A DNA stretch of 50,406 nucleotides from the NCBI GenBank assembly GCA_020444175.1, contig JAHLLM010000040.1:1-50406 (forward strand). The letters run 5' to 3'. The DNA is from Desulfobulbaceae bacterium. Its GTDB lineage: Bacteria; Desulfobacterota; Desulfobulbia; Desulfobulbales; SURF-16. The notes under the pieces are model-generated. The model did no database searches. It was not told the origin of the DNA and saw only the letters and a list, made by a program, of their open reading frames with translations. Made by a program: the position numbers and the translations under genes. Positions within the stretch are counted from its first letter, which is position 1. Each line of letters opens with the position of its first letter. Shown in pieces: positions 27,054 through 49,882 of this stretch.

Positions 27054-27061
27054 CAAGGGTG

Positions 27062-30374: not shown

Positions 30375-30670
30375 GGTTGGTCCTCTAGCGGGTTATAAGA
30401 TCGTCCAGGGTTTTCTCGTTTTTGAGAGTGCTGCCCACCTTTGTCGAAGTCTGGAAGTCTGCGTTTATTTCTCTATTTTTTTAAATAAAGCTTATATATA
30501 TACTATATGAATGCGCGCATTTTTTCAAAATTGATATTTTTGAAAAAATGTTTTTATCAGATTTAAGCTTCTCTCGGTATTGATTGACAGTGTTGTTTCG
30601 GCTCGTTTTGAGGATTTTCACCCTCAAGGCGTATAATGCGAGATCTTTAAGATTCAAGCGTTTGATTTTT
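30375..30670. other. 296-bp gap between regB and regA
   Basis: AT-rich and non-coding. It contains the hairpin at 30518-30550 and no RegA-type box. It may hold a separate regA promoter. Confidence 0.5.
30518..30550. terminator. AT-rich hairpin between regB and regA
   Basis: CATTTTTTCAAAA pairs perfectly with TTTTGAAAAAATG around a 7-base loop. A terminator or attenuator role is possible but the stem is weak. Confidence 0.35.
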
Positions 30671-32053: not shown

Positions 32054-32103
32054 TTATATTGAGGGCAAAGTACATTGAAAAGGCGGATTCCTGCTTACCT
32101 TGG

Positions 32104-32120
32104 CGCGACATTTTGCCTCA
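32104..32120. promoter_or_regulatory. RegA-type box 5
   Basis: CGCGACATTTTGCCTCA lies in the divergent space between regB (51 bp away) and the next sensor kinase (214 bp away). TGTGGCAAGTTGTACAG follows directly and may be a degenerate second site. Confidence 0.6.
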
Positions 32121-32333
32121 TGTGGCAAGTTGTACAGTATGCTATTAAGTACTCACTTATAAAAACTTGTCAAGTGATTCGTGGCAAAACAATTCACGGT
32201 TTCGCATTTATGCACCTTGAAGGTGAAAAGTCCCGAATCGTCATCACATCTTCTAGATCTCGTTGATAATTTGTGACGGACGCTCAGCTTCTTTATGTAT
32301 TGCGAGTTCGTCAATAAATTAAGGATGTTAAAT

Positions 32334-33947: not shown

Positions 33948-33987
33948 GCTAATGTTGTTACAGTGGGTGTTACAAAAAAATTGCAGG

Positions 33988-34004
33988 TGCGACAATTCAC
34001 CACA
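33988..34004. promoter_or_regulatory. RegA-type box 6
   Basis: TGCGACAATTCACCACA, 98 bp before the PilZ gene. The left half-site is perfect and the right one is weaker. Confidence 0.55.
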
Positions 34005-34101
34005 TGTGCAACTGATGCATTCTGTGTTACATTATTTTTCAAAGTCTAAATAATAATTTTTTTGAGGGCGTATGCCGTTTTGGAAAGCTTAGCGAGGTTC
34101 T

Positions 34102-34425
34102 TTGGGATTGGTGCTAAAAATGGGTGAAGCTGCTGTTCTTGCCGATGGGAGGCTTGCTGAACGCATTTCTGCTGTTAGCTTTGACGGTGCCACATCCCTT
34201 GTCCTTGAAGTGAGAGATTTGGTCTTTAATGTTATGGCGGCGCAATTGCTTAATATTAGTCAGACAGGGATGGGGGTAGTAACTGAACATGAACTCTCTC
34301 TCGGCCAAATGGTCAGTGTTACCAACGGACTTAACAGTGAAATGCCTAAAAAAGCAGTAGTCATGTGGTCGACTAGCTTCGATGGCGGCTTTCGTTCCGG
34401 ATTAAAATTTGTTCGTGCCAGTTAA
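34102..34425 (+). CDS. PilZ domain protein
   Basis: About 107 residues, cytoplasmic, mostly a PilZ-type beta barrel. NISQTGMGVVTEHELSLGQMVSV carries the (D/N)xSxxG motif intact. The end (KKAVVMWSTSFDGGFRSGLKFV) is the usual last strand pair. An upstream Arg pair is not obvious, so c-di-GMP affinity is uncertain. The start is unclear: TTG at 34102 follows GAGG by four bases, while ATG at 34120 would trim six residues. It is monocistronic: a RegA-type box lies upstream and a strong terminator downstream. It directly precedes the OmcS-like gene. Confidence 0.75.
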   Translation: MGLVLKMGEAAVLADGRLAERISAVSFDGATSLVLEVRDLVFNVMAAQLLNISQTGMGVVTEHELSLGQMVSVTNGLNSEMPKKAVVMWSTSFDGGFRSGLKFVRAS

Positions 34426-34774: not shown

Positions 34775-35905
34775 GTGAAAAAAATGATGAAGAAAACACA
34801 CACTGTAAAAGCTCTTGTGTTAGGTATAGGTGCGGCAGGGATGTTTCTTATTCCCACAATTGCCATGGGGGCAGCACAAGGTCCTTGTGTCAACTGTCAT
34901 ACAATGCATAACAGCCAGGATGGCGGTAATGTAATTGGGACAGACACTCCAAACGGGGCTTTGATTGCCAAAGTAGGTGGCTGCGTCGGTTGTCATACCA
35001 GTAGTAATAATACTGAAAATATTCAGAATAATATACCGATGGTCATGCACACGGGTGCGCCTGCTGCCACAGCTAACGGTGGAACACTGGCTGGCGGTTC
35101 CTTTTACTGGGTAAATGACAGTGGCGAAAATGTTGATTCTAAAGGTCATAATGTTGTTGGTATAGCAACAACCGATGGCGACATAGGTCAGGAGCCTCCG
35201 GGCTGGAATGCTGATTTTAATGCGAACAGTCAGGTGGGAAGCACTTGGGGCAGTAACCAGCTGACTTGTGCCGGTACATACGGTTGCCATGGCGATCATA
35301 CAAAAGATAGTGATTTTTCCGCTGTTTCAGGTGCCCATCATGCTGACGACAGCACAATTGACGGTACTACCGTTCCGAAAAGTTATCGTTTCCTCCTTGG
35401 TATCAAAGGCATAGAAGACTCTGACTGGGAAGATACCGTGGCTGCCAATGACCATAATCAGTATTATGCTGCCCACAGGACAGCAGATACTGAAGCTTCT
35501 GCTGACTCTGCGTCCATTAACTATCTTTGTGCAGAGTGTCACGGTGATTTTCATTCCGGAACCGGTGATCTCGGTATTGACGCAGATGGATCCTTCGGAG
35601 CAGCCTGGCTTCGTCATCCAACTGATATTGACATGAGCGATGATACCACTTTTGTGACCGGAACTGAATATGCCAGCTATGTCACTTATAATCCCCTTGC
35701 CCCTGTGGGCAGTTCAAATGGCGCTTTGGTGAATACCAATGTTAACTCTCAGGACAATGGTATTGTAATGTGTCTTTCCTGTCATCGTGCTCATGGTTCT
35801 GAGTATGCCGATCTGCTTCGCTGGGATTATGCCCAATGTGATGCAGGTTCCGGAAATACTGCAGCAGATTGTGGTTGCTTTGCCTGTCACACCACAAAGA
35901 ATTAA
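34775..35905 (+). CDS. OmcS-like hexaheme extracellular cytochrome (putative nanowire subunit), copy 1
   Basis: 376 residues with a signal peptide ending TIAMGA. The site order matches Geobacter OmcS: CVNCHTMHNS, CVGCH, a third site, CAECHGDFHS, CLSCHRAHGS and the C-terminal CFACHTTKN. GHNVV, YRFLLGIKG and WLRHPT also have OmcS counterparts. OmcS polymerises into extracellular haem filaments. The third site here is CAGTYGCH (CX5CH) instead of CXXCH. The GTG at 34775 is chosen because AAGGAGGG lies five bases upstream and a RegA-type box lies further up, inside what would be a longer frame. Terminators on both sides make it monocistronic, as expected for an abundant structural protein under its own redox control. 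Filament formation is inferred. Confidence 0.85.
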   Translation: MKKMMKKTHTVKALVLGIGAAGMFLIPTIAMGAAQGPCVNCHTMHNSQDGGNVIGTDTPNGALIAKVGGCVGCHTSSNNTENIQNNIPMVMHTGAPAATANGGTLAGGSFYWVNDSGENVDSKGHNVVGIATTDGDIGQEPPGWNADFNANSQVGSTWGSNQLTCAGTYGCHGDHTKDSDFSAVSGAHHADDSTIDGTTVPKSYRFLLGIKGIEDSDWEDTVAANDHNQYYAAHRTADTEASADSASINYLCAECHGDFHSGTGDLGIDADGSFGAAWLRHPTDIDMSDDTTFVTGTEYASYVTYNPLAPVGSSNGALVNTNVNSQDNGIVMCLSCHRAHGSEYADLLRWDYAQCDAGSGNTAADCGCFACHTTKN

Positions 35906-35996
35906 TCTGGCTAGGCAGGTTAACGGGAAATAGAAAATAGAGGTCAATTTGTCTTAGACACATGTAATAAGATCTCAAGATGATAACGGAGTTAAA

Positions 35997-36055
35997 TTCC
36001 GGACCCGAAACGATATCCCTTCCCTCCTAATCGTTTCGGGTCCGGAATTTTTTTT
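35997..36055 (+). terminator. Strong Rho-independent terminator
   Basis: A perfect 18-bp stem (TTCCGGACCCGAAACGAT with its complement, 35997-36014 and 36030-36047), a 15-base loop and eight T. It ends the OmcS-like transcript. Confidence 0.95.
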
Positions 36056-36215
36056 GCCCTGAATCCCATTTTTTTTCTTTTTTACACTTGTGTGGTTTGA
36101 AATACTTATGATAAGAAGTTTCAGGATGCAAAATTAAATGATGAAATATAACGATGTTACTCAATTTTTTTAATTGATGTTCTTTTGTGGTTACATCTGC
36201 CAAAATGGTAAGTTA

Positions 36216-38243
36216 ATGAGCGGAGGGATTGTTAATAATACGTTTCAGTTTTTGCTTTTCGTACTCTTTTTTTTTATGAGTACAGTATTGGCATTTGCAT
36301 CACCCCTTTCTTTTACCGGTACAGTCTCATATAACGATTCTTCGAATGATGACAGTACCACTCAGGTCAGCCAGAATACAACGGCTACCTTTGACCAGGA
36401 GTTGACGCCTGTAATGAAACTTGAAGAAAGTGTCCGTTATCGTACTTCCTGGCAAGGTGGCAAAAATGCCGAGTCTCTCGCTCCTATCCTTGATTTTTCT
36501 GTAGATAATCATCTTTTTTTGTTCGAATTTTCCGGTGCAGCAACGAAGCAGAGGAGTTCAGAACAGTCAAACCGTTTGAATCGTTCTTGGTTGACCCGAT
36601 TAAACAGTAACTGGGAAAAACCTCTCTGGCCAGTCATCCAGCTCAATTTCGGGCAGGATTTTTCTGAGGATGATCAGGATCCCAAGGTTACAGATTCCGT
36701 CTCTACTCTTAGTGGTTTTGACATTGACTGGGATTTGTTGCTGGCAAATGTTTATTACAGTGTTGACCGAAATGAGAACGAGGATGAAACCGATAAAAGT
36801 TCTGACACGAATACAAGACAGCTTGCCCGTTTCTCAACAGATAAATATTTCTGGGAAGATCGAATACGTTTTTCCTTTCTTGAGCAGTATACTCAGAATG
36901 ACCAAACCCATTCCTCAATAGTCAGCGAAGATGGTTTTACTCTTGTGCCGGTTACGGTAATACTCTCGAAGGGGGGATGGGATCCGGATGATGAAGATGC
37001 GCAGCCTGAGTGGGATGATCTGGTCACTCCTTTACCCACTGTACTTCAAGACGAGAGGTACAATATTGCAATCAGGGTGGACTCGCAGCAGGTCGATACT
37101 ATTTACTTGGAAACGGATGTTGATTTAACTTCTGAAGCAAATCTTTTTCGATGGGAGCTTTACTACAGCTCAAACGGTACAGATTGGACGATAAGCATTC
37201 CGACACCGACAGCCAGCTACAACATGGATCTGCAACGTTTTGAAATTGAAATCCCTGGTATAACTGCAAGATATATTATGTTGGTTGAAACCGATGTTCC
37301 TTCTACTGAAGACTTCAACATTACCCAAATCAGAACCTTCAAGAAAGTAACCGGAGCCATCGGAACCGAAGTCAATGAAAGACAGGAAAGTTATGATTAT
37401 ATAACTGAAGCGGGTCTGAGTTGGCGTATCGCATCTGATCTTAATATTACCTATAATTTTGGGATGAAGACCGGAAAAACAGTTGCTGACGAAGACACTG
37501 ACAGTAGGAACCAGTCTCTGGGACTCCGATGGACGCCCAGTCTTCTTTTTACTTCGACTTTTACCGCCAACGAGACCCAGGAGCAGCAGGGCGATGAAGA
37601 AGAATCCCTGAGCCGAGCTTATGCAGCCAGTTTTTTCTGGGAGGCATTCCCGACCCTTGATTTTAATCTTGCCGTGACCAGATCGGAAAAATATGAAGAC
37701 AACAGCCATATTTCCACCAACTATGACTACACCCTCCTGACCAATGCAACTTTGTTCCCGGATTTGACAACAACTCTTGATCTGGCCTACGGGACAGATA
37801 GTGATAAAGAGAAAAATGAGTATAGTCAGGATTTTAATGTAAACTGGAAAGTGACCGCCCGATTGATACCCGGCCTGACACTTGATTTTACAGAGCGTTA
37901 TTCTACTTCCCGCGCAGAAGAGACAGACAGCTGGACCTTTTCCAGTGGTCTGGATCTGAGCTGGCGTTTTTCAGATATCCTGTCGATGAGCGCTGCAGGC
38001 TCACAGTTGTGGGATGATGTGGAAACAGGACCATTTCTTTATAACTTAAATTTTTCTCTGTCTCCTGCAAATAATACTCAGGTGAGTCTCAACTATAACC
38101 ACGATGACGAGAGTGATATGTACAGTGCGAACTGGAGCTGGACAATAAATAAATATTACTCAACGAGAATAAATTGTAGTTATTCCGATAAAGTAGATGA
38201 TGATGAGCTTCAATATGGCGCTCAGATGTCAGTGAGATATTAG
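36216..38243 (+). CDS. Large outer-membrane beta-barrel with inserted discoidin-like domain
   Basis: About 675 residues with a signal peptide (TFQFLLFVLFFFMSTVLAFA). Two blocks of alternating amphipathic strands (about 30-250 and 395-675) end in Tyr (GAQMSVRY), as outer-membrane barrels do. Between them, about residues 265-390, is a soluble domain (NIAIRVDSQQVDTIYLETDVDL..WELYYSSNGTDWT..ARYIMLVETDVP) that looks like an F5/8 type C (discoidin) fold. Large barrels next to multiheme cytochromes form electron conduits in Shewanella and Geobacter. No direct MtrB homology can be claimed. Start: ATG 36216 gives the best signal peptide, and a start 42 bp upstream is possible. No good Shine-Dalgarno is seen. 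Confidence 0.8.
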   Translation: MSGGIVNNTFQFLLFVLFFFMSTVLAFASPLSFTGTVSYNDSSNDDSTTQVSQNTTATFDQELTPVMKLEESVRYRTSWQGGKNAESLAPILDFSVDNHLFLFEFSGAATKQRSSEQSNRLNRSWLTRLNSNWEKPLWPVIQLNFGQDFSEDDQDPKVTDSVSTLSGFDIDWDLLLANVYYSVDRNENEDETDKSSDTNTRQLARFSTDKYFWEDRIRFSFLEQYTQNDQTHSSIVSEDGFTLVPVTVILSKGGWDPDDEDAQPEWDDLVTPLPTVLQDERYNIAIRVDSQQVDTIYLETDVDLTSEANLFRWELYYSSNGTDWTISIPTPTASYNMDLQRFEIEIPGITARYIMLVETDVPSTEDFNITQIRTFKKVTGAIGTEVNERQESYDYITEAGLSWRIASDLNITYNFGMKTGKTVADEDTDSRNQSLGLRWTPSLLFTSTFTANETQEQQGDEEESLSRAYAASFFWEAFPTLDFNLAVTRSEKYEDNSHISTNYDYTLLTNATLFPDLTTTLDLAYGTDSDKEKNEYSQDFNVNWKVTARLIPGLTLDFTERYSTSRAEETDSWTFSSGLDLSWRFSDILSMSAAGSQLWDDVETGPFLYNLNFSLSPANNTQVSLNYNHDDESDMYSANWSWTINKYYSTRINCSYSDKVDDDELQYGAQMSVRY

Positions 38244-38273
38244 CCACGGTTTGCTGCAGGGATCACGAAGCTC

Positions 38274-38291
38274 GGGGGAATACGTTCCCCC
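38274..38291 (+). other. Short hairpin after the barrel gene
   Basis: GGGGGAA and TTCCCCC pair around TACG, 31 bp after the barrel stop. There is no T-tract, so termination would be partial at best. Confidence 0.4.
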
Positions 38292-38365
38292 TAAAATGAA
38301 GATGAAGGAAAGGATGAGAGAACATGTTAAAAAATTTTTAACATCAACTTGAATAGGTTCAGACA

Positions 38366-38974
38366 ATGAAAAAAATAAAATATTTCTTACTTGTACTGGT
38401 GATAGTTTGCCTTGCCGGCTGCAGTACAAAGTCTCCTGTGTCTTTTACCCGAGAAGATGTAACCCTTGATTTTGTCAAAAAAGTGTGTGTCATGCCCCTT
38501 GAGAATCACTCGGAGGAAAAGTTTGCGGCTGAACTTGCAAGGAATGTCATCAATACTCAGATTCTTGAGATGGGTCTTTTTGATATTGTCGACAAAGGTA
38601 TTGTTGATTCTGTCCGGTATGAGGAAGCTGTTGAACCGGGTACGCCTCTGAGCGCGCATGCCTTGCAGCGCCTGGGCCAGCGTCTCAATGTAAATGCAAT
38701 TATTGTTGGATCTGTCGATCTGGCAGGGGAAAAAAGAGTTGGTTCCGTAATTGTTCCGGAGATCAGTCTGACTTTACGACTTATTGAGATTAAATCTGGA
38801 TTGATCTTGTGGCAGGCGAGTGGATATAATGATGGTGACTCCATGTTGGGGCGTCTTTTTGGTTTGACTCCGGGAGATACCTATCAAGTTGCCCTTGAAC
38901 TGGTAAGAAATATTTTGCATACCATCCCGCAAAGTTTTGACGATAGTATTGTGGAAGTTGAGCCGAAAAAATAA
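38366..38974 (+). CDS. Lipoprotein, CsgG/GNA1162-like, copy 1
   Basis: 202 residues with a lipoprotein signal (LAGC, Cys19). The mature part follows the CsgG-N/GNA1162 pattern: VKKVCVMPLENHSEEKFAAELARNVINTQILEMGLFDIVDKG..., then QRLGQRLNVNAIIVGSVDL and TLRLIEIKSGLILWQASG. Proteins of this group sit in the periplasm or outer membrane. CsgG itself forms the outer-membrane export pore for curli. Two more proteins with this fold follow, at 39173 and 40657. A role in export or anchoring of surface cytochromes is only inferred. AGG lies about nine bases before the ATG. Confidence 0.75.
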   Translation: MKKIKYFLLVLVIVCLAGCSTKSPVSFTREDVTLDFVKKVCVMPLENHSEEKFAAELARNVINTQILEMGLFDIVDKGIVDSVRYEEAVEPGTPLSAHALQRLGQRLNVNAIIVGSVDLAGEKRVGSVIVPEISLTLRLIEIKSGLILWQASGYNDGDSMLGRLFGLTPGDTYQVALELVRNILHTIPQSFDDSIVEVEPKK

Positions 38975-38975
38975 T

Positions 38976-39160
38976 TGTAACTATTCATTTGCACCCCACG
39001 AAGTCTGTGCCAGCGCTTTTAGCGCGTCAGGCTTGTTTTCATATGTTTATTAAAGACTCGTAGGCCCACATACATGTGAAGCTGGGGCACATCTGATACT
39101 TACAGTCTAAAGTTGAGGCTCATTTCGTGCCTTGGCCTGAGCCTGAATTGAATAGATACA
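38976..39160. repeat. Short inverted-repeat element B, full copy in a promoter region
   Basis: A 185-bp element with ends TGTAACTATTCA (38976-38987) and TGAATAGATACA (39149-39160), complementary at 11 of 12 positions. The right part, including AGTTGAGGCTCATTTCGTGCC, is shared with the leader at 45-84. It fills nearly the whole gap between two envelope genes. Confidence 0.65.
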
Positions 39161-39172
39161 AACATAATAAAT

Positions 39173-40660
39173 ATGCTTAAAAAGTTTTTTGTCATTTCCG
39201 GACTCCTGCTGGTTCTGCTTATTCCGATGACGGCATATGGGGTAACTGTTGCCGTTTTCCCCGTGGAGGATCTGAGCCGGGGAAGGAACGGGTATAACGC
39301 TCCATTGACAGAATTTTTACGGCAAAATCTTGCCGACAGGGGGCTGGAAGTCATCTCCTCGGAAGATCTTATGGCTTTCATGGTTCGCCGTCGAATAAGG
39401 TGGCTTGGGTTTCTGGATAGCAGCAATATTTATGAGGCTTATGAAGATTTAGGTGTTGATGTTGTTATGTTGGGGACAGTGAGTCAGCTTCAGGAAAAAC
39501 CCATTCCCTCCCTTGGTATGATTCTTACCGCTGTTGAGGTTAAAAATGCCACAACGTTATGGTCTGAGTCCGGTGGAATGAGCTGTGCTGATATATGTAA
39601 TCTGTTAGGGCTTTCGGAACCGGAAAAAATCGATGATCTGCTCCCTGTTCTGGCAAATGAACTGTTAAACAGTCTCCCCCTCGATAGACTGGCCAGCATA
39701 GATAAAGGCACTCCTCCGGTTGAAGTAGAATACACGAGTCTTTTTCCGAAACATGCCCGCCCGGGAGAAGAAATTCGTTGTTCTGTCCGTCTTCGGCCTG
39801 CGGCCGGGCAGAGAGATGAAACTCAGGTACAGCTCATGGTTGGTGATAATGATTACGTCACAATGAATGAGAATGCTCCCTCTCTTTATGAAGCGACATG
39901 GGTGGCCCCGAACAGAAACGAATCTATTCCGGTAAGCCTTGTGCTGCAAAGCTCTGCCGGAGAAAAACAGGTTTATTATGTGGGCCATTATCAGGTCGAT
40001 GACAGTGCCCCGAAACTCACTATTGAGGCCAGAGGAAAGAAGGTCAACGATTCGGTGGCCTTTAGTCAAAAAATTTATGTTTATCCACAGTGGCAGACAC
40101 CTGAGCCTGTTTCGCGCTGGTCATTCTCTATTAAGAACGCTGATGGAGAAATCATTGCAAACCTGACTGAAAAGAATGCCCTGCCAAAGCACTTTGTCTG
40201 GAAGGGACAGAAGGCAGACGGCAAGAAAGTTGATGAGGGGGTGTACGAGTTTATTCTGAAAGTCTGGGACCGTGCGGGTAATGAAACCCAGGCTGCTACA
40301 AAAATAAATTTCTATAAAAATCCTCCTGTTCCGCTTTTAACAGCGGATATTACGGAACAAGAGCTTGTTGTTACCCTTGATCGTGGTGAGGGAGTGGTGC
40401 CGACAGCGTTTTGGTCTGCGAAAATTTTGTTTTCCGATGGGGAGACCTTGGTAGACCAGCAGGGCAGCGAATTGCCTGTGGAGTTTCATCTTCCCCTGCC
40501 TGCGGACGATGAGACCAGAGATCTTGAAGGTTTGATCGAGATCCAGGATATTCTTGGCAACAAAATACTACGGAGGTTCAGCAGTATCATGCAACTTGTA
40601 ACCACGGTGGAGGAAATTGAGGATGATGCCGAGCAGGATGAGTGGGTGATTGAGTTTTGA
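39173..40660 (+). CDS. Exported CsgG/GNA1162-like protein with FlgD-type Ig domain
   Basis: 495 residues with a signal peptide (KKFFVISGLLLVLLIPMTAYG). Residues about 24-170 form a CsgG-N/GNA1162-like domain (VAVFPVEDLSRGRNGYNAPLTEFLRQNLADRGLEVISSEDL, YEDLGVDVVMLGTVSQL). A beta-rich middle follows. Then comes a FlgD-type Ig-like domain near residues 310-385 (HFVWKGQKADGKKVDEGVYEFILKVWDRAGNETQA). The end is acidic. It lies between two CsgG-like lipoproteins and overlaps the next gene by four bases (TTGA). The start lacks a Shine-Dalgarno, and an inverted-repeat element lies just before it, so expression may depend on that element or on read-through. Confidence 0.75.
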   Translation: MLKKFFVISGLLLVLLIPMTAYGVTVAVFPVEDLSRGRNGYNAPLTEFLRQNLADRGLEVISSEDLMAFMVRRRIRWLGFLDSSNIYEAYEDLGVDVVMLGTVSQLQEKPIPSLGMILTAVEVKNATTLWSESGGMSCADICNLLGLSEPEKIDDLLPVLANELLNSLPLDRLASIDKGTPPVEVEYTSLFPKHARPGEEIRCSVRLRPAAGQRDETQVQLMVGDNDYVTMNENAPSLYEATWVAPNRNESIPVSLVLQSSAGEKQVYYVGHYQVDDSAPKLTIEARGKKVNDSVAFSQKIYVYPQWQTPEPVSRWSFSIKNADGEIIANLTEKNALPKHFVWKGQKADGKKVDEGVYEFILKVWDRAGNETQAATKINFYKNPPVPLLTADITEQELVVTLDRGEGVVPTAFWSAKILFSDGETLVDQQGSELPVEFHLPLPADDETRDLEGLIEIQDILGNKILRRFSSIMQLVTTVEEIEDDAEQDEWVIEF

Positions 40661-41256
40661 GAAATGCTTTTTTGTTTTTAATGAGTCTTCTTTTCTGCTT
40701 AGGCTGTATGTCCTGTAGTGGCCCTTCCGGGCCAATTGTACAGCGTTATGCCCCCCTTGAGCAGGAACGGTTATGTAAGGTGGCTCTTTTACCTTTTGTC
40801 AACAACACTCGCTTCAACCAGGGTAATACGATAGTACAGAGAATTTTTGGGTCGGAGCTTGCTCGCATTGCCGGTGTGGAAGTTGTTCGAGAAGGGGATG
40901 TCCGGAAGGTATATCCTCAATTAAGGATTTATCCCAATCAGGTGCCTGATGTTGACCAGATCAGGATACTGGGTAGTCGACTGGGAGTCGATTATCTCAT
41001 TTTAGGAACAGTTTCAGCAATGGAGGAAAATTTCAGCGAACAGCATGTTAATCCTCTGCTGGCACTTAATCTGGAAGTTCATGAGGCCCAGAGCGGTAGA
41101 GTAATGTGGACTACTTACCATAAGAAAGAGGGAAGGGACTATCGAACCATTATGCATTTTGGTCTGGTTAATACGGTAACCGAGCTGTGTCGGGTTATGT
41201 CCCAGGAAATTTTAGACATGTGGTTTTCTGAAGGTTTAAAAAAATGCGGAGAATAA
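40657..41256 (+). CDS. Lipoprotein, CsgG/GNA1162-like, copy 2
   Basis: 199 residues starting at a TTG that overlaps the previous stop (TTGA), so translational coupling is likely. The signal ends at CLGC or CMSC (Cys17 or Cys20). The mature part (LCKVALLPFVNNTRFNQGNTIVQRIFGSELARIAGVEVVREGDV...RILGSRLGVDYLILGTVSAM...LNLEVHEAQSGRVMWTTYHKKEG) is a good CsgG-N/GNA1162-like sequence. The third protein of this type in 3 kb. It overlaps the prolyl isomerase gene by 13 bp, so the set is one operon. Confidence 0.75.
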   Translation: MRNAFLFLMSLLFCLGCMSCSGPSGPIVQRYAPLEQERLCKVALLPFVNNTRFNQGNTIVQRIFGSELARIAGVEVVREGDVRKVYPQLRIYPNQVPDVDQIRILGSRLGVDYLILGTVSAMEENFSEQHVNPLLALNLEVHEAQSGRVMWTTYHKKEGRDYRTIMHFGLVNTVTELCRVMSQEILDMWFSEGLKKCGE

Positions 41257-42881
41257 TATTTTTGCTTGCAGGGTTTCTTGCACTGTTTATGGTTGGCGGG
41301 GCTCCCCTGCAGGCTGCCTGGTTCTGGGGAAACTCATCATTGGTAACTATCAATGATAAAGAGTTCAGCCAGGAAGACTTCAAAAACTGGTGGCAGCAGT
41401 GGCGCGAAGAGGATAGTTCCTTTCCGGAATCTCTTGATCCCTTTATTGACTGGCACTTGCTGGCTCATGAAGCTGAACAGATGGAGCTCTATAATGAGCC
41501 GACCTATCGGCAGAAAATTTCGATCTTTCTCAAGGCTCGTACTCTGTTGATGTATAAAAGTGACAAGATCAGTTCACGAATTAAGATCACTGATGAGATG
41601 CTGAAAAAAAGGTATGAGGAAAAATATCTACCCCGATTGAATCTCCATGTGCTTTATTTTAATGATAAAGATAAGGCTGATGCCGCGTTCTCCAGTCTGA
41701 AAACCGAGAAGATAAGTTTCAAGGATTTTTTTGAAGAAGCCCAGTCTGAAGAGGACCATTCCGTTTTTTTTGAAGAAAAAATTGTGCGGATGACGCGTCT
41801 TGACAAGGAATGGAGGCAAGGTATTGCATCACTTGCAATAGGCGAAATCTCCGAACCATTTGCTTGGCGGCATGGGTTTGTCATTGTCTATCATGCCGGG
41901 GAAAAAGGTGGGGATGAGGAGGATTTTCAAAAGTTTAAAAAGATTCTTCCTAATGAAATACGCGACGAGATGGAGAATGATTTAACACGGCAGCTGGTGG
42001 AGGAGTTGAAGGAAAAATATGAAGTAACTGTGGACTGGGATGTTTTTAATGCCGTTGAGCCGGAAGGTGAAAATGAAAAATTGCTTGATAAGACCCTCAT
42101 TACCATTGATAATAAAGAATATTCTACAAGCATCTTTCTGGAATTTTTGAAGAAGGAGCGTTCATTTCGTACCGAATACGGCTACCATCTTGAAGAGGCA
42201 GAAAAATTCAAAAAAAGAATTCTTAACGGCATGCTCGCGCAAACCCTCACAACCCTTGCCGCCTTAGACGAACATTACGAAGAAAAAGAGCCTCTCAAGC
42301 CAATTTATGAATTCTATTGTCAGCACCGGCTTATCAAGGAACTTGAAAATCGCCTTTTTCGGCCCCAGGTTTCTGTGACCGACGAAGAAATTGAAAAGTA
42401 TTATAATGACAACCTGGAGCGTTTTTCGCAGCCGGAAATGGTTTCAATAGCTGTACTTGAAGATGAAGAGAATCTGATAAATAAGATGTATGAAGAAATG
42501 AAAAGGGGCGAGGATTTCTTTGATGTGGGGAGGCGTTATTATTCCAAAGAAAGTCCTGTAAAGCGGATGCCTTTAAAGAACTTGGCTGCCGTTGTTCAGG
42601 ATAAACTTTCTAAAATGGTAGACGGTGAAGTGAGTTCGCCAATTACTGTTCAGGGACATCACGCTATCATAAAACTTGTGAGTCGAGTTCCCTCCACAGC
42701 AATGCCTTTTGATCACGTCAGAGACAAGATTGCCACTCTGCTTGATAAGGAAAAATTCTCCAAGGCACGTGACTCGTATCTTGCCCAGCTCAGAAATAGA
42801 TCAGTTATTTCTGTAAATGATCGCAGCTGGGAGAAATTAAAAAAGGAAATCGGAGATCTTCATGTCGGGAAAGAAAATTAA
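41244..42881 (+). CDS. Periplasmic SurA/parvulin-type peptidyl-prolyl isomerase
   Basis: 545 residues with a signal peptide (MRRIIFLLAGFLALFMVGGAPLQA). A SurA-like helical chaperone region is followed by a first parvulin-like domain (about 131-220, LNLHVLYF...IGEISEPFAWRHGFVIVYHAGE). A second chaperone region and a second parvulin-like domain come next (about 395-480, EMVSIAVL...GEVSSPITVQGHHAIIKLVSRV). The first copy looks degenerate at catalytic positions, so isomerase activity is more likely in the second. Prolyl isomerases occur beside extracellular cytochrome genes in Geobacter and relatives. A folding role for the adjacent 26-heme and OmcS-like proteins is inferred. It overlaps the genes on both sides (13 and 20 bp). 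Confidence 0.85.
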   Translation: MRRIIFLLAGFLALFMVGGAPLQAAWFWGNSSLVTINDKEFSQEDFKNWWQQWREEDSSFPESLDPFIDWHLLAHEAEQMELYNEPTYRQKISIFLKARTLLMYKSDKISSRIKITDEMLKKRYEEKYLPRLNLHVLYFNDKDKADAAFSSLKTEKISFKDFFEEAQSEEDHSVFFEEKIVRMTRLDKEWRQGIASLAIGEISEPFAWRHGFVIVYHAGEKGGDEEDFQKFKKILPNEIRDEMENDLTRQLVEELKEKYEVTVDWDVFNAVEPEGENEKLLDKTLITIDNKEYSTSIFLEFLKKERSFRTEYGYHLEEAEKFKKRILNGMLAQTLTTLAALDEHYEEKEPLKPIYEFYCQHRLIKELENRLFRPQVSVTDEEIEKYYNDNLERFSQPEMVSIAVLEDEENLINKMYEEMKRGEDFFDVGRRYYSKESPVKRMPLKNLAAVVQDKLSKMVDGEVSSPITVQGHHAIIKLVSRVPSTAMPFDHVRDKIATLLDKEKFSKARDSYLAQLRNRSVISVNDRSWEKLKKEIGDLHVGKEN

Positions 42882-44802
42882 ATTTTTTACCGGGTTAGCC
42901 CTTATTTCCTGTTTTTTGGTGTCCTGCGTAGCCAGTCAACCTACCAGAAAAACACGAAAGTCCTGTGTAGAATGCCATGCCGATATGGCAGCTGCCTTGA
43001 AGCAGGAGGGTGTGGTCCATAAACCGGTACAGGAGGACAACTGTGAGGCCTGTCACCTGCACCATGGCATGGTTGGGGGAGTTTATCTGCGTCAGAACCA
43101 ACCGGCGCAATGCTTTGTCTGTCATCGTGAAAAAATGGATGAGGCGAAAAAAAAGTCTGTTCATCTGCCTGTTGCCAAGGGGCGTTGTGATTCTTGCCAT
43201 GAGGTGCATCAGAGCCAGTTCGCCGGTCTTTTAAAATCAGAAAACAGCCAGTTTTGTTTTAAATGTCATGACAAAAAGGAGTTCAGCAGGAAAAATATCC
43301 ATCCACCGTTAGAGGACGGATGTGGAAGCTGTCATGTCAACCATGGATCTGACAACAAGCCTCTACTGAAGCAGAGTCAGGAGTCACTGTGTATTTCCTG
43401 CCACGAAATTAACGAATCTTTTAAGCAGAGTCATTTCGGCTATGCTGTTGAGAGCCGGTGCGTGCTCTGCCATACCCCGCACAGTTCTGATGGTGATCAT
43501 CTCCTTAAAAATGTTGTCCACCAACCTGTACAAAAAGGAGAGTGTGAAAGTTGCCACCCCGGGCAAAAAGGGGATCCGTTACAGGTCCCGCAAGATGCGG
43601 ATGCAACTTGTTTAAGCTGTCATGAAAAAAATGTGAAAAAAACCGCAAGTCTTCATGAGCCTTTTGCCAAGGGGCAGTGCACCACTTGTCATGCCGTGCA
43701 TGCCGGGCAATACACCGCGATGCTTTCCCCTTCGCCTGAAAAGGTGTGCTTGAGTTGTCATATCCAGGAAAGTGATGTTGAGATAAAAAGCAGTCATGTT
43801 CCTTACACGGACGGGCAATGTCTTTCCTGCCATTATGGGCATAGTTCCGACCGAAAAAATTTGCTCACAGACAGATCTGATAAGCTCTGTTATCAATGTC
43901 ATGAATCAAAAAGCTATGGCAAAGGACGTCGTGCTCATGATCCGGCAGCTAAGGGAGATTGCCTTACCTGTCATAATCCCCATGAGGCGAAATATGGAAC
44001 TCTGTTAAATAATCAGGAAAAAGATCTTTGCCTGTCCTGTCATGAGACAAGTGCAAGAGAGATGGGGAATTTCTCGCTGCACACTCCTTTTGCAGCCGGT
44101 AACTGCAGTCGTTGCCACGAACCGCATCAGGGAGAACGGAAGAAATTCCTGAAAGAAAGTGAAAGCAAGGGTGCACTTTGTCTAAGTTGTCATAAGGATC
44201 AGCAGAAACAACAGGAGACATCTTCCCATGATCCTTTTGTAAAGGGGCAATGTCAGACATGCCATTCTGCCCATGCCGGAGACTACGCTTTTAATTTAAA
44301 AGACAAAGCCGGGGTTCAATGTCTTTCATGTCATGATGTTATACAGAAGAAGCTGAACAGTTCAAAGCAAATACACGAACCTGCTGAAAAGCTCAATTGC
44401 GGTGCTTGTCATGTGGCCCACGGTTCGGTTCATGAAAATAATCTTAAAAAACAGCAACCGGCACTCTGTCTGAATTGTCATCGCGAAGTTGCTGTCTATT
44501 GGTCCAAAGGTGTTGCCCATGAACCAGCTACCAAGGACTGTACGCTTTGCCATGATCCCCATGCCTCTCAGTATAAAGGCATAGTCAAGCAAGTGGGTGG
44601 TGATCTTTGCGCCAGCTGCCATAATCTTGTCGAACCGAGGTTTGCTGCCGTGCATCAGGGAATAAAACCAGGTAAAGATTCTTGTCTTAGCTGTCATGAT
44701 CCCCATGGGGGGGCAGAAAAGGGGCTGCTCTTTCCTGTTGTTCATAGTCCGTTTGCCCAGGGGAACTGCAGTCCGTGTCATCCAGGGGAGGGCAATAAGT
44801 AA
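42862..44802 (+). CDS. 26-heme c-type cytochrome lipoprotein
   Basis: 646 residues with a lipoprotein signal (FLVSC, Cys22). I count 26 CXXCH motifs from CVECH (near residue 35) to CSPCH at the C-terminus. Pairs repeat with spacing of about 50 residues in the form VHxPVxxGxCxxCHxxHxSxxxxLLK, then LCxxCH: a chain of doubled-CXXCH modules. There is no other domain, so it is essentially a long haem wire tied to a membrane by lipid. It is inferred to be the main electron carrier of the conduit formed with the barrel at 36216. GGAG lies seven bases before the ATG. It overlaps the isomerase gene by 20 bp and the next cytochrome by one base (TAATG). Confidence 0.93.
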   Translation: MSGKKIKFFTGLALISCFLVSCVASQPTRKTRKSCVECHADMAAALKQEGVVHKPVQEDNCEACHLHHGMVGGVYLRQNQPAQCFVCHREKMDEAKKKSVHLPVAKGRCDSCHEVHQSQFAGLLKSENSQFCFKCHDKKEFSRKNIHPPLEDGCGSCHVNHGSDNKPLLKQSQESLCISCHEINESFKQSHFGYAVESRCVLCHTPHSSDGDHLLKNVVHQPVQKGECESCHPGQKGDPLQVPQDADATCLSCHEKNVKKTASLHEPFAKGQCTTCHAVHAGQYTAMLSPSPEKVCLSCHIQESDVEIKSSHVPYTDGQCLSCHYGHSSDRKNLLTDRSDKLCYQCHESKSYGKGRRAHDPAAKGDCLTCHNPHEAKYGTLLNNQEKDLCLSCHETSAREMGNFSLHTPFAAGNCSRCHEPHQGERKKFLKESESKGALCLSCHKDQQKQQETSSHDPFVKGQCQTCHSAHAGDYAFNLKDKAGVQCLSCHDVIQKKLNSSKQIHEPAEKLNCGACHVAHGSVHENNLKKQQPALCLNCHREVAVYWSKGVAHEPATKDCTLCHDPHASQYKGIVKQVGGDLCASCHNLVEPRFAAVHQGIKPGKDSCLSCHDPHGGAEKGLLFPVVHSPFAQGNCSPCHPGEGNK

Positions 44803-45977
44803 TGTTGAAATATAAAAATCTGAACTTGATTATTCTTCAGTTTCTGATTGTTGCATTACCTGCAACGGTCATGGCAGATAATGTTTGTTTTACCTGCCAT
44901 GATAAAAATCTATTCAAAAATAAGGTGGTGCATCAGCCTCTTGCCAAAGGGAAGTGTAATGATTGCCATAATCCCCATGTGGCTCATTATAAAGGCTTGC
45001 TTGACCAGCAGGGTGCTGATCTCTGTTATGATTGTCATAAGCAGGAAGAAGAGTCTTTCGGCCAGGGAATGGTTCATTCTCCGGTCCGTCAAGGAAAATG
45101 CTTGAGCTGTCATGAAGCCCATGCCAGTAGTAGAAAGGGACTGCTTAAAGACAAGTTGAGTACGACCTGTTTTGAGTGTCATAAAGAACTTCAAGTAAAA
45201 TATAAGCAAACCCATGCTCCTTATGCCAAAGGGCAATGTTTTTCCTGTCACCTGCCTCATTCTTCTCAGTATGGGCAGCTGTTGAAGAATACGGAAGACA
45301 AGCTCTGCTCGTCATGTCATATGGACCAGGATCTTCGCAAGGCCCATCCTAAGTATCCCGGCCACCTGCAAAATTGCCTTACCTGTCATAATCCCCACGG
45401 AAGTGAGCGCAAGGGGTTGATACGCAATTTCCTGCATGCCCCATATGAAGAAGGCTGCGGTGACTGCCATGGAAAAGGAGATGAGAGGGTGGGCACGCAG
45501 ACATGCCTGCAATGTCATGAAGAGGTTGGGGACAAGATGTTTATGACTCATACTCATCTCAGCGGAAAGTCAGTTAATAAATGCGTAGTCTGTCATTCGC
45601 CTCATGCCTCGGATGAGAAGAGTTTATTGCGCAAAAAACAGGAAAAGGTTTGTCGAACCTGTCATGAAAATACACGCAAGCGTTATGAAGATACTCTTTA
45701 TAAGCATGAGAACGCTGATAAGTGCACGGAATGCCATGATGTTCATGGTTCAAATCAGCTGGTGATGATGAAAGGGGATGGGAACACTATCTGTACCAGA
45801 TGTCACGAAACCCAGGGACAATTCACTCATCCCATTGGTGACAAAGTAAAAGATCCGAGAACCGGTCAGAGTGTCACTTGTATAAGCTGTCATACCCCCA
45901 TGGGGTCAGACTATAAGTATGAGTTGAAAATGAGTGGGTCAAAAGATTTATGCGTACAGTGTCATAAGAGGTATTGA
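44802..45977 (+). CDS. 16-heme c-type cytochrome
   Basis: 391 residues with a signal peptide (LNLIILQFLIVALPATVMA). Sixteen CXXCH motifs are present (CFTCH, CNDCH, CYDCH, CLSCH, CFECH, CFSCH, CSSCH, CLTCH, CGDCH, CLQCH, CVVCH, CRTCH, CTECH, CTRCH, CISCH, CVQCH). They lie in the same doubled-CXXCH modules as the 26-heme protein, from which it may derive by duplication. There is no lipobox, so it is probably soluble in the periplasm or secreted. Its ATG shares a base with the previous stop, and GGAGGG precedes it, so the two are cotranscribed and probably interact. Confidence 0.93.
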   Translation: MLKYKNLNLIILQFLIVALPATVMADNVCFTCHDKNLFKNKVVHQPLAKGKCNDCHNPHVAHYKGLLDQQGADLCYDCHKQEEESFGQGMVHSPVRQGKCLSCHEAHASSRKGLLKDKLSTTCFECHKELQVKYKQTHAPYAKGQCFSCHLPHSSQYGQLLKNTEDKLCSSCHMDQDLRKAHPKYPGHLQNCLTCHNPHGSERKGLIRNFLHAPYEEGCGDCHGKGDERVGTQTCLQCHEEVGDKMFMTHTHLSGKSVNKCVVCHSPHASDEKSLLRKKQEKVCRTCHENTRKRYEDTLYKHENADKCTECHDVHGSNQLVMMKGDGNTICTRCHETQGQFTHPIGDKVKDPRTGQSVTCISCHTPMGSDYKYELKMSGSKDLCVQCHKRY

Positions 45978-46070
45978 TTCAGCCGTCACTGATTAGTATC
46001 ACATAATACTGACTGTGCAAAACTGAGTATGCTCATAAGAGTTGAAAGTGAATTTCTGCAAGGGGAAAAT

Positions 46071-46961
46071 ATGAAGCGACTAAGCTTAATCGGGGGCTAT
46101 TTATTTATCGTGGCTGCCATTTCTCTGTCCATGGTGGCGTCAGCTCTGGCGACTGAACCCTGGATCTGGAAAATGACTCTGGAGACAGGGACTGCTTCCC
46201 AAACCATGGACCGGCCCACTGCTCTGTATATAGACGCGGAGAAGAAACGTTACTATGTCGTGGACAGTGGCAGGAGTCGTCTGCTTTCTTTTGACGAGAG
46301 TGGGACTTTCCTCCACGCATTTAATGCTGACGGCAATCTGCAAACTCCCTATGATATGGTCCGTGATGCAAAGGAGGTAATATGGATTGTTGAGAAGGGA
46401 CGTAATACTTTGACAAGCATTGATGTTGCCAACCAGAGCATTACCCGACATGTTTTAAAGGCAGGTGAAAGGACCCTTGTGCCTAGCCGCATTGCCATTT
46501 TGAAAGATAAATTCTATGTACTCGACCAGGCACAGGGAGAGGTCGCGGTTGTCAATGCTGCCCTGGAAGTAGAGAAATGGTTCACCTGCCAGGATTGTCG
46601 TGGCGGCGTGGTTGACTTCCAAGTTGCAAAAAATGGGTCTCTCCTGGCACTTGATCAACTCGGAGAAGATGTTGTTTTTTTTGATTCTGATGGCACGCTT
46701 CTGAGACGAATTCACGTTGGGCAGTATGTGAAGTTTCCTTCATCACTCGCTGTCGGCCCATCTGGTCTCGTCTATGTGCTTGACAGGCATGAGGGGAGTA
46801 TTTCTGTTTTTGATACAAAGGGTAGCTTTAAATATAGTTTCCTTTCTTTCGGTGAGTTACGCGGGCAGCTCTATTTTCCCATAGAGATCCTTTTTGACCC
46901 ATGGGGCAATCTTTGTGTTGTCGAGGAAGGAAATGGCCGGGTAGAGATATTCAGCCGTTAA
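46071..46961 (+). CDS. Exported NHL-repeat beta-propeller protein, copy 2
   Basis: 296 residues from the ATG at 46071, which has AAGGGG six bases upstream and opens a signal peptide (GGYLFIVAAISLSMVASALA); the frame extends 14 codons further but without support. Repeats of about 45 residues (RPTALYIDAEKKRYYVVDSGRSRLLSFDESGTFLHAF; PSSLAVGPSGLVYVLDRHEGSISVFDTKG; PIEILFDPWGNLCVVEEGNGRVEIFS) form an NHL propeller. A CQDC pair lies near residue 182 but has no following His, so it is not a haem site. It precedes the second OmcS-like gene by 14 bp and is probably cotranscribed with it. Confidence 0.85.
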   Translation: MKRLSLIGGYLFIVAAISLSMVASALATEPWIWKMTLETGTASQTMDRPTALYIDAEKKRYYVVDSGRSRLLSFDESGTFLHAFNADGNLQTPYDMVRDAKEVIWIVEKGRNTLTSIDVANQSITRHVLKAGERTLVPSRIAILKDKFYVLDQAQGEVAVVNAALEVEKWFTCQDCRGGVVDFQVAKNGSLLALDQLGEDVVFFDSDGTLLRRIHVGQYVKFPSSLAVGPSGLVYVLDRHEGSISVFDTKGSFKYSFLSFGELRGQLYFPIEILFDPWGNLCVVEEGNGRVEIFSR

Positions 46962-46975
46962 ACAAAGGGGGGAGC

Positions 46976-48109
46976 ATGCGATCAACTCAAGTTACTTGGA
47001 TATTGGCACTGGTATCACTGATTGGATCCCCTGTTGTATCCAGTGCGCGAGTGAGTGGCCAGCAGTGTGGGCATTGTCATACCATGCATAACAGTCAGGG
47101 CGGTGAAGGCGTCGTCAAAAAGATGATCGATGGCGTTATGGAGACCGAAGGAAATGAAACGCCGAATCAGTCCCTGCTGGTCAGTAATTGTGTCGGCTGC
47201 CATGCCGGAACAAATGATGGGACTGGAGATACACCTTATGTCCTTGATACATCGGCCGAACCGCAATACGGCGCTGGCGGCAATACCCTGGCCGGAGGGA
47301 ATTTCTACTGGGTAATGTCGGATGATGATACAGGACATAACGTCCTTGACATTGCCGCTGAGGATGTCCGTCACGGCAGCATTCCTCCTGGATTCAACCA
47401 GTCTTTTAACCCGGGAGGGAATTATGACACAGACAGTCGACTCACCTGTTCCGGGACAAACGGCTGTCACGGTAAGCTGACTTCTGCGGATCAATATGCC
47501 GACCTCTCTCGAGCCCACCATGGCAATGATGATGTCATTGATGGACAGAGCATTGCCGGTAGTTTTCGATTTTTGATGGGGGTCCAAGGGCTGGAGGATT
47601 CCGACTGGGAGTATCAACCGACTTCGACAGAGCATAACCAGTATAAGGGTGAAGATCGTTCCGATGACGGGTCTCGTTCCACGGTTGTCGTGGACTCGAA
47701 ATCCTACCCTGTTACCATCAGCGGACTCTGTGGCAACTGTCATGCCAATTTTCATTCCAATGCCAGTGGTATTGATGAAGACGGCAATATGTCTTCACCC
47801 TGGCTGCGCCACCCGACAGATTTTGATCTGGGTTCTACAGCCGGTGGTTCGGAGTACAGGTCTTATAACGGAGCAGGGGACAGCTCGTCTGCCCCGTACA
47901 GCCTCCAGTCTCCTGTGGCCAGTTCCAATGTTTCCGTTGTGTTGTCAACCGTTGATGTTTCTTCAGCTACTGGTGAAGCCCTTGTAAACTGCCTGTCCTG
48001 TCACCGGGCCCATGGTTCACCCTATGACGCCATTTTACGCTGGGATTTCAAGTCCTGGCCTGGGGGGGGATACAACGGCTGTGCTGTCTGTCACACCTCA
48101 AAGGATTGA
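46976..48109 (+). CDS. OmcS-like hexaheme extracellular cytochrome, copy 2
   Basis: 377 residues from the ATG at 46976 (GGGGGGAG upstream), with signal peptide WILALVSLIGSPVVSSA. Haem sites: CGHCHTMHNS, CVGCH, CSGTNGCH (CX5CH), CGNCHANFHS, CLSCHRAHGS, CAVCHTSKD. It is a clear paralogue of the protein at 34775: both share GxTLAGGxFYWV, FRFLMGVQGLEDSDWE (YRFLLGIKGIEDSDWE in copy 1), WLRHPTD and LSCHRAHGSxYxxxLRWD. Both keep the odd CX5CH site. The OmcS family polymerises into filaments; whether this copy does is inferred. It has no RegA-type box of its own and probably follows the NHL gene. Confidence 0.85.
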   Translation: MRSTQVTWILALVSLIGSPVVSSARVSGQQCGHCHTMHNSQGGEGVVKKMIDGVMETEGNETPNQSLLVSNCVGCHAGTNDGTGDTPYVLDTSAEPQYGAGGNTLAGGNFYWVMSDDDTGHNVLDIAAEDVRHGSIPPGFNQSFNPGGNYDTDSRLTCSGTNGCHGKLTSADQYADLSRAHHGNDDVIDGQSIAGSFRFLMGVQGLEDSDWEYQPTSTEHNQYKGEDRSDDGSRSTVVVDSKSYPVTISGLCGNCHANFHSNASGIDEDGNMSSPWLRHPTDFDLGSTAGGSEYRSYNGAGDSSSAPYSLQSPVASSNVSVVLSTVDVSSATGEALVNCLSCHRAHGSPYDAILRWDFKSWPGGGYNGCAVCHTSKD

Positions 48110-48439
48110 CGGCCTCGCAAGGTTACGTTTGACGCCGCTGGAACACGTGTAGCTTGCTGATATTGGGTATGAGGGGGCAGCTTTATGACTTTTGGCATCT
48201 TCATCACACGTGGGCGGTTTAGCATTCTGCCCTTGATGGTGAAAGAATGATCAGCCACTCCCGACTCGTGAGCAACTTGAGTATATTCCGTTAGTCGATG
48301 ATTGCCTTTTCTCTTTTTGGGAGAGGCATCAATGATTAGGGCTGCAATCATCCGTTTATTTTCAACAAAATATTTCTTCTCAGATCAGGTTGCGTCGATG
48401 AATAGCTTGTCCCATGTTCGTAATTGCAGATTATTTTCT
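48110..48439. other. 330-bp region without a supported gene
   Basis: A reverse-strand frame of 86 codons exists but matches no family I can name and has poor composition. A shrunken mobile-element remnant is possible. It may hold the promoter of the lipoprotein that follows. Confidence 0.45.
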
Positions 48440-49882
48440 ATGAAAGAATCTTGCCTTTTATATAATGTTGTGCCTCTTCTTCTTTTCCTGTTGGCAATTG
48501 GTGGGCTGTCAGGCTGTGCGCAGCAGGGCCCTGCAGTAAAAAGAGACCAATCTTCTCTCTCTCTTCAGGATTCGCCGGGTGATGTAAAAATCTCCGTATT
48601 CATGAGCCTGAAAGACCAGCTTGGTCCATCGCTGATGATGCAGGTTGATGGGCTGGAACTTTTTGCTGGAGAGGCATGGGTCCCTCTTTCTCTATCCCGA
48701 CGGGAAATAACAAGTAGGGAAATCGTTACAACCGGACAGATTATTGTTGGAAGAGGAGGCGTGCCGGCCGGCAGATATAGAAAATTAAGACTTCGGATTA
48801 AAAAGGCTGCCCTTGAAAGATTAGGAGAAAATATATTCCTGGCCACGGATGAACCTTTCTTTGATTTTATTTTGCCTGCTGATCTCGCCCTCAGGAAAGG
48901 AGACAGCTCATCTCTTTTTCTCACATGGGATACTGCTTCCTCTGTGCAGAATAAAGCCATGTTTATGCCGAAAATGAATGTGGCCACCCAGTCCATTCCA
49001 CTCACCACGGACCTCGCCTACGTGGCATGTCCTGAAATAAATACCCTGTATATTATCAGGACGGACAAAAATAGGGTTTGCGGTTCTATTGGCATAAGCG
49101 GAGGACCTGTCTGTCTGGCAGCCAATGTGAAGAGAAATCGTCTCTATGTCTTGTCTCCCGGTGATTCGTCCATTAAAATTATAGAACTTACATCAAACAG
49201 GCAGCTTGATCAGATGCGGATTCCTCACATTCAGCAAGCTACCTATATGGCCGTCAGTCCGGATGGTGACTGGGCTTATATTCTCGATGAGAAAGGGGAC
49301 CAGCTTCTTCGACTGGATTTAAATTCCGGTGGCCTGGCAGGAAGCATACGCCTCGGTTCACGACCTCGATTTGTTACTTATCTTGAAAACGAAAATTTTC
49401 TGGCTGTTTCCACGGCTTATTCCCAGGAGGTTTTGTTCCTCGATCCTGATACTCTGTCTATTTTAAAAACTTTTTCCACGGGGGGCAGTCCTGATGGTGT
49501 CATTGTCCAGGATGGCGTCCTCTATATTGCCGAGGATTCCACAAGCACTGTAACTGCTTATGATTTGAACCGAGGAGGAAGCCAGTATAGAGTGAATGTC
49601 GGAAGACGACCGCGCAGATTTGTTTTTGCCAATAACAGGCTCTACTTGTCAAATTATGGATCTGGTTCCGTTTCAATATTAAGGGCCGGACAGCTTAATG
49701 TTTTACGTGAGCTCAAGGTTGGCGACAGACCCTATGAAATGGTTGTGTATCCTGCCAGACAATGGCTTTACGTGGGCGAGCAGGCAGGGAGAGGCATTTC
49801 TGTCATAGATCTTTCTTCAAGTAAAGTAGTTCAGACCATTGAACTTGGCACATCTGTGAGCGACTTGGTGTTGGTTAACTAG
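48440..49882 (+). CDS. Beta-propeller lipoprotein (YVTN/cytochrome d1-like propeller)
   Basis: 480 residues from the ATG at 48440, with a lipoprotein signal ending LSGC (Cys26). Residues about 40-180 form a beta domain (DVKISVFMSLKDQLGPSLMMQVDGLELFAGEAWVPLSL...AGRYRKLRLRIKKAAL). The rest is a propeller of YVTN type (LAYVACPEINTLYIIRTDKNRVCGSI; NRLYVLSPGDSSIKIIELTSNRQ; WAYILDEKGDQLLRLDL; NRLYLSNYGSGSVSILR; QWLYVGEQAGRGISVIDL). No haem motif is present. A longer frame begins at 48302 but gives no signal peptide. It closes the electron-transfer locus and is the third propeller protein in it. A scaffold or binding role at the outer membrane is inferred. Confidence 0.78.
   Translation: MKESCLLYNVVPLLLFLLAIGGLSGCAQQGPAVKRDQSSLSLQDSPGDVKISVFMSLKDQLGPSLMMQVDGLELFAGEAWVPLSLSRREITSREIVTTGQIIVGRGGVPAGRYRKLRLRIKKAALERLGENIFLATDEPFFDFILPADLALRKGDSSSLFLTWDTASSVQNKAMFMPKMNVATQSIPLTTDLAYVACPEINTLYIIRTDKNRVCGSIGISGGPVCLAANVKRNRLYVLSPGDSSIKIIELTSNRQLDQMRIPHIQQATYMAVSPDGDWAYILDEKGDQLLRLDLNSGGLAGSIRLGSRPRFVTYLENENFLAVSTAYSQEVLFLDPDTLSILKTFSTGGSPDGVIVQDGVLYIAEDSTSTVTAYDLNRGGSQYRVNVGRRPRRFVFANNRLYLSNYGSGSVSILRAGQLNVLRELKVGDRPYEMVVYPARQWLYVGEQAGRGISVIDLSSSKVVQTIELGTSVSDLVLVN

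Follow-up and report, generated by a model that had tools for sequence, protein, structure and literature searches.

Can a c-type haem be held at a site whose two cysteines stand five residues apart, or has such a site in an OmcS-like cytochrome been turned to another use? The question is raised by a 50,406-nucleotide stretch of a Desulfobulbaceae bacterium genome (contig JAHLLM010000040.1, assembly GCA_020444175.1; henceforth termed the window), which encodes two OmcS-like cytochromes, each with five canonical CXXCH motifs and one CX5CH motif that occupies the third position. We find that CX5CH at site 3 is a real, fixed, and widespread feature. We further consider it likely that the proteins represent a family that is sister to OmcS, its haem 3 held on a fixed CX5CH hairpin and its haem ligands re-dealt, with a DPH histidine lost and an HH pair gained. 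The elements in question are the following.

34775-35905, plus strand: OmcS-like cytochrome 1, 376 amino acids, GTG start, Paired_CXXCH_1 domain, related to OmcS via the family profile
35267-35290, plus strand: CAGTYGCH (CX5CH), third haem site of cytochrome 1, from reading frame and DNA pattern
35336-35341, plus strand: HH pair of cytochrome 1, candidate axial ligands from histidine conservation
46976-48109, plus strand: OmcS-like cytochrome 2, 377 amino acids, ATG start, related to OmcS
47447-47470, plus strand: CSGTNGCH (CX5CH), third haem site of cytochrome 2, from reading frame and DNA pattern
47516-47521, plus strand: HH pair of cytochrome 2, matching that of cytochrome 1 in histidine conservation

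A first-pass annotation of the DNA had placed the two third-site motifs at these positions, which the reading frames and DNA pattern hits at 35267 and 47447 bear out. The OmcS-type layout it described is likewise present in both proteins (CHTMHNS, GHN, WLRHP, LSCHRAHGS, and a terminal CHxxKD/N in the form of CHTTKN or CHTSKD). The cytochromes are 39% identical, carry signal-peptide-like N termini, and score above the cut-off of the Pfam doubled-CXXCH domain (PF09699); against NCBIfam TIGR01905 (cut-off 25.2), cytochrome 2 scores 30.3 and cytochrome 1 24.2. Written as a degenerate DNA pattern of 27 bases (serine as TCN only), C-[A/S]-G-x-x-G-C-H-G matched the 5.42 Mb genome four times, once in each of four CX5CH-type genes, and its reversed control had no match in the genome. 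Searching the same genome at E≤0.001 gave eight matches, i.e., the four CX5CH genes, two genes of a sister type described below, and two canonical OmcS-like genes, to which a separate search added one more canonical gene. Contig C22 of this genome holds a neighboring pair of canonical OmcS-type genes (L007, L188).

The motif extends well beyond this genome. Genomes from the bacterium's own family were positive in 15 of 22 cases (E≤1e-20), as were 28 of 297 in a phylum sample (E≤1e-25), and relatives were found in Desulfobulbaceae, Desulfurivibrio, Thermodesulfobacteria, Desulfuromonas, Desulfofervidaceae, and Nitrospirota among the best 80 of 465 listed, a selection in which distant forms are under-sampled. 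Neither of the patterns used on the relatives' database (CHTMHNSQ and C[LIV]SCHx[AV]H[GA][ST]) includes site 3; the confirming query itself contains CX5CH. Matches to the family profile comprised 174 distinct open reading frames (ORFs) in 173 loci. In 158 of them, both ends of the GHN-to-YRFL stretch could be set: 123 hold a single site, always CX5CH, 34 hold two sites, and one is canonical. The 16 unbounded ORFs divide into ten with CX5CH, three sister-like, and three truncated at or before the site. For the phylum sample, the loci that were read account for 96 of 102 matches and yield 95 distinct ORFs, of which 59 are of CX5CH type (59 of 59 readable rows of that type), 33 of sister type, and three truncated. 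Two of the 33 sister-type ORFs have three motifs in the stretch, and L241 parses as one (inner Cys). The six remaining matches comprise three CX5CH genes (both window genes plus L030) and three of sister type (L005, L006, and L055).

For residue-level comparison, 191 candidates with a core of at least 290 amino acids were reduced to 133 rows at 72% identity, 12 of which were retained by choice. X5 spacing occurs in all 92 CX5CH-type rows of this thinned set, with the first cysteine, the glycine at the fifth X, the second cysteine, and the histidine each conserved in 92/92, alanine at the first X in 85, and glycine at the second X in 90. The five canonical sites of these rows are also 100% conserved, and site 3 is CXXCH in 17/17 OmcS-type rows. 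The odd spacing alone might raise the suspicion of a decaying site or of a mistake in sequencing or assembly; four intact genes in one genome, the 92 of 92 rows, and the presence of the motif in the isolate Thermodesulfobacterium hydrogeniphilum DSM 14290 (L123, L127) make this explanation vanishingly improbable. The first-pass annotation had argued against error or decay and had guessed at a subfamily, and both points hold, the latter through the 92/92 thinned and 59/59 phylum-sample rows. The common spacing that it saw in two paralogues is not limited to them; a large family has it.

Kinship to OmcS, which had also been proposed from the start, is apparent in searches of Protein Data Bank (PDB) sequences. 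The family profile matched only OmcS at E≤0.01 (E 2.2e-24), and cytochrome 2 alone found it at E 1.4e-11; cytochrome 1 alone had no match at E≤1 and is tied to OmcS through cytochrome 2 and the profile. In the profile alignment, OmcS CSSCHDPHG lines up gap-free with C-AGxxG-CHG, which agrees with the earlier claim that the OmcS counterpart of the third site is a CXXCH. A PDB search with a consensus segment spanning CX5CH gave no hit at E≤10. Compared with OmcS of Geobacter sulfurreducens (PDB 6EF8, 6NEF), the window proteins are homologous over most of the chain, follow the same site order, and have the CHxMH, GHN, RHP, and RAH histidines in common, whereas site 3 is CX5CH instead of CXXCH, the separate DPH histidine is gone, and HH and HN.Y are added. 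They thus fall outside an OmcS family defined by six CXXCH sites, and both combine a CAGxxGCHG-type site 3 with HH, as is characteristic of the CX5CH family. The second histidine of CHxMH, which we take to be the inter-subunit ligand of OmcS, is present in both window proteins. OmcS forms a filament, and the window proteins are putative filament subunits.

To compare potential axial ligands, we inventoried non-motif histidines in four groups of 78, 12, 24, and 17 rows, listing those conserved to at least 90%. The second CHxMH histidine is at 100% in all four. OmcS-type rows have the CHxMH, GHN, DPH, RHP, and RAH histidines at 100% each, the histidine two residues before GHN at 88%, and the FH column at 47%. 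In CX5CH six-site rows, the histidines of CHxMH, GHN, FH, RHP, and RAH and both of HH are at 100% and that of HN.Y at 95%; these eight non-motif histidines at 95–100% are enough for six bis-histidine haems. HH is found in 100% of CX5CH-type and sister-type rows and in 0% of OmcS-type rows. The DPH column of OmcS corresponds to the histidine of CX5CH, and CX5CH rows lack a separate DPH histidine.

These patterns are consistent with the following model. C-A-G-x-x-G-C-H-G would form a short β-hairpin that directs both cysteines toward the haem vinyls, and the next histidine would be the proximal ligand. Since this nine-residue module equals OmcS C-x-S-C-H-D-P-H-G in length, the difference resembles a shift of register, in which the second cysteine and proximal histidine would move three residues on and the spare DPH histidine of OmcS would be consumed. 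The new histidines, the invariant HH and the nearly invariant HN.Y, are possible distal ligands. That the fixed hairpin constitutes a distinct class of c-haem site, and that the ligand swap rewires the geometry and potential of haem 3 relative to OmcS, is a more ambitious proposal to which we give slightly less than even credence.

AlphaFold2 models of the two proteins, built on alignments of 72 and 74 rows, have a mean predicted local distance difference test score of 75.8 and 81.4, with 92 in the site-bearing block of each. Both place the CX5CH site in a predicted hairpin (E130-133/E137-140 in one model, E131-134/E138-141 in the other), where the two cysteines would face each other. Such a geometry also invites a different explanation, namely that haem 3 was lost, the CX5C cysteines form a disulfide in the hairpin, and the histidine is the old DPH distal ligand, leaving five haems or haem 3 replaced from elsewhere. 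The hairpin in two models fits this proposal, as does the gap-free alignment of CAGxxGCHG with CxSCHDPHG by both HMMER and MAFFT. It would, however, leave nine invariant or nearly invariant non-motif histidines for five haems. OmcS has 12 axial histidines, one of them from the neighboring subunit, and its haems stack in motif order (according to PMC6584659), so that without haem 3 the chain would be interrupted at the third of its six positions. Neither cysteine, nor the glycine before the second cysteine, nor the histidine is ever lost in 92 rows, and the sister type keeps C...CH here, canonical in 8 of 24 rows, although either of its two sites might be the counterpart. On balance we regard the disulfide as improbable: of the two options raised in the first-pass annotation, a loop that still carries haem or a converted site, the first is favored by conservation and by the number of histidines available as ligands.

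The sister type (24 thinned rows; e.g., L005, L006, and several of L046-L063) holds two sites in the same stretch. The second is a CXXCH in 24/24 rows and stands just before HH; the first always retains C...CH, with loops of 2 (8 rows), 3 (9), 4 (2), 5 (1), 6 (3), or 9 (1) residues. Among CX5CH rows, 13 of 90 have an extra site (loops 2–7) before site 4, all 13 with an extra histidine (PQVxH); five of the 77 rows that lack the extra site, including cytochrome 1, have this histidine too. Examples of this seven-site type are L174:12614-14020 (minus strand), L004, L021, and L036. Judged from these alignments, C...CH is kept while loop length drifts elsewhere in the lineage, and the site-3 length of the CX5CH type is steady. 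In a tree built with the site-3 columns removed, OmcS-type rows fall on one side of a branch with a Shimodaira-Hasegawa-like approximate likelihood ratio test support of 100 and sister-type rows on one side of another (89). The sister type may have arisen from the CX5CH type.

Several observations weigh against the proposed haem-bearing sister family. The CX5CH histidine, aligned gap-free with the OmcS DPH histidine, could be a retained distal ligand. Several canonical sites are modeled as helical turns and CX5CH as a hairpin, which also suits a disulfide. Foldseek comparison with the PDB gave no match for one model and only an unrelated complex at E 5.6 for the other; as OmcS itself is in the PDB, this silence tells little for coil-rich cytochromes. 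The PDB profile search retrieved no structure of a CX5CH member, only OmcS, and we found no mass data. On the tree, the extra site and its histidine have one origin, so their co-occurrence counts as one event, and CX5CH rows lie between the other types without forming a clean group: the best tree requires two changes of label, although a single change satisfies the well-supported branches. Finally, six short relatives (L252-L257) keep CAGKYGCH, five of them without the second histidine of the first CHxxH; CX5CH need not accompany filaments.

Between the two cytochrome genes lie eight further genes, followed downstream of cytochrome 2 by a propeller-like protein.

36174-38243, plus strand: outer-membrane barrel candidate, first gene of the block (sub-threshold Pfam BBP2, E 0.031)
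38366-38974, plus strand: LpoB-family lipoprotein (PF13036, E 1.4e-8)
39173-40660, plus strand: FlgD_ig-like protein (match just under cut-off)
40657-41256, plus strand: small lipoprotein-like protein, no Pfam match at E≤0.01
41244-42881, plus strand: PPIC-type peptidyl-prolyl isomerase (Pfam)
42862-44802, plus strand: cytochrome with 26 CXXCH by motif count, lipoprotein-like N terminus
44802-45977, plus strand: cytochrome with 16 CXXCH by motif count
46029-46961, plus strand: NHL-repeat protein (Pfam), last gene of the block
48302-49882, plus strand: β-propeller-like protein (propeller-family matches under cut-off), with a tblastn match in 40 of 80 relatives' loci

Two loci of Desulfurivibrio alkaliphilus contain counterparts of all eight block genes in conserved order. 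Of these two copies of the block (L174 and L175), one is flanked by six-site cytochromes and the other by seven-site and sister-type ones. Among the loci of the best 80 named relatives, tblastn (E≤1e-6) detected at least one block gene in the flank of 69: in 45 the cytochrome gene directly follows the NHL gene, 16 more have the barrel, and eight have another match, including weak multihaem cross-matches; 11 have none. NHL or barrel matches reach at least 100 bits in 60 of 80. In Geobacter, an eight-gene block, GSU2500-2493, sits beside the OmcS-like GSU2501 and includes the 26-haem GSU2495 named in PMC12977616; Shen et al. 2025, as cited there, linked it to OmcS maturation and secretion. The window likewise has eight genes with a 26-motif cytochrome next to an OmcS-like gene, and by this comparison of count and described content (as given in PMC12977616) its block looks like a nanowire maturation and secretion block.

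One member of the family is already in print with its motif counted. Both primers for reverse-transcription quantitative PCR of D. alkaliphilus DA_402 match L174 exactly, which identifies the L174 gene as DA_402; its third site is CAGAKGCH. It belongs to the same family as the window proteins and lies beside a copy of the same block, but has seven sites, the extra CNRCH being missing from the window proteins. PMC12545173 counted CX2-5CH motifs in DA_402, aligned six of seven with OmcS haem sites, and describes the seventh as lacking a paired histidine; the extra DA_402 histidine (PQVYH) would be a candidate partner for this motif. The same study gives its DA_402 model a template modeling score of 0.56 to OmcS. 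It also reports a more than 100-fold rise of its most prominent cytochrome, the OmcS homologue, during iron-oxide growth of D. alkaliphilus, as well as induction of DA_756 and DA_765, which, judged by position, probably correspond to the CX5CH pair of L175. A literature search for the motif by name, covering some spellings and a single library of papers, found no paper on a family-wide CX5CH.

Whether such proteins polymerize bears on a second alternative, in which CX5CH binds haem, in keeping with the haem part of our proposal, but the proteins are monomeric surface or periplasmic carriers. We found no report of a filament from any CX5CH member, and among the G. sulfurreducens OmcS homologues only OmcS is known as a wire, according to PMC12977616. 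The five L252-L257 rows that have CAGKYGCH and lack the CHxxH histidine also point toward carriers, and for the same reason CX5CH lost weight as a mark of the filament interface. On the other hand, the CHxMH histidine is invariant in the four inventory groups (L252-L257 lie outside that set), the genes flank a block resembling one for nanowire maturation and secretion, and PMC12545173 reports a predicted DA_402 oligomer like the OmcS filament. We therefore consider carriers rather unlikely, if less so than a disulfide, and filament formation plausible. The sister family of OmcS would then comprise secreted cytochromes with six haem sites that flank a maturation/secretion-like block, their haems most likely stacked as a chain for extracellular electron transfer; for the CX5CH family, we document the sequence, its conservation, the synteny with D. 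alkaliphilus, the histidine inventory, and the predicted hairpin, and we infer haem occupancy, the register shift, the ligand roles, and polymerization.

Other systems offer partial parallels. In OmcZ, a haem is bound across a loop of 14 residues (PMC9473688), which resembles the proposed site as a nanowire haem on a stretched motif, although that loop is longer than the five residues of CX5CH and lies at a subunit interface. The Oet cassette of syntrophic sulphate reducers (OetABI and the OmcS-like OmcX) combines a porin, periplasmic and surface cytochromes, and OmcS/OmcX-like genes, a likeness to the window genes drawn from its description in PMC10553843. CX15CH sites have a dedicated lyase (PMC6976685), and CX5CH may have one as well. 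The maturation genes of the genome comprise one ResB (two pieces, one frame) and four Cytochrom_C_asm matches, none on the contig of the window. Directly upstream of the cluster, the window encodes a response regulator, two histidine kinases, and a PilZ protein (29838-34425), preceded by another multihaem ORF and an NHL-repeat ORF (27059-29807). A strong match to the actin-like family Volactin (PF25216, E 2.5e-82) is located at 4934-6136 on the minus strand.

In a putative nanowire family of Desulfobacterota and Nitrospirota, haem counts based on CXXCH only would miss one haem per subunit, and the family affected includes the cytochrome reported in PMC12545173 as most induced during iron-oxide respiration of D. 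alkaliphilus. If haem is bound, CX5CH would provide a compact natural test of how far cytochrome maturation tolerates non-standard spacing, and would also show how a nanowire can swap its internal ligands and yet keep its chain intact. If the rewiring proposed for haem 3 is true, the haem chain itself would be altered, beyond mere tolerance for a longer loop. Should the site carry no haem, the continuous stack of six haems known from OmcS would not hold for the CX5CH family.

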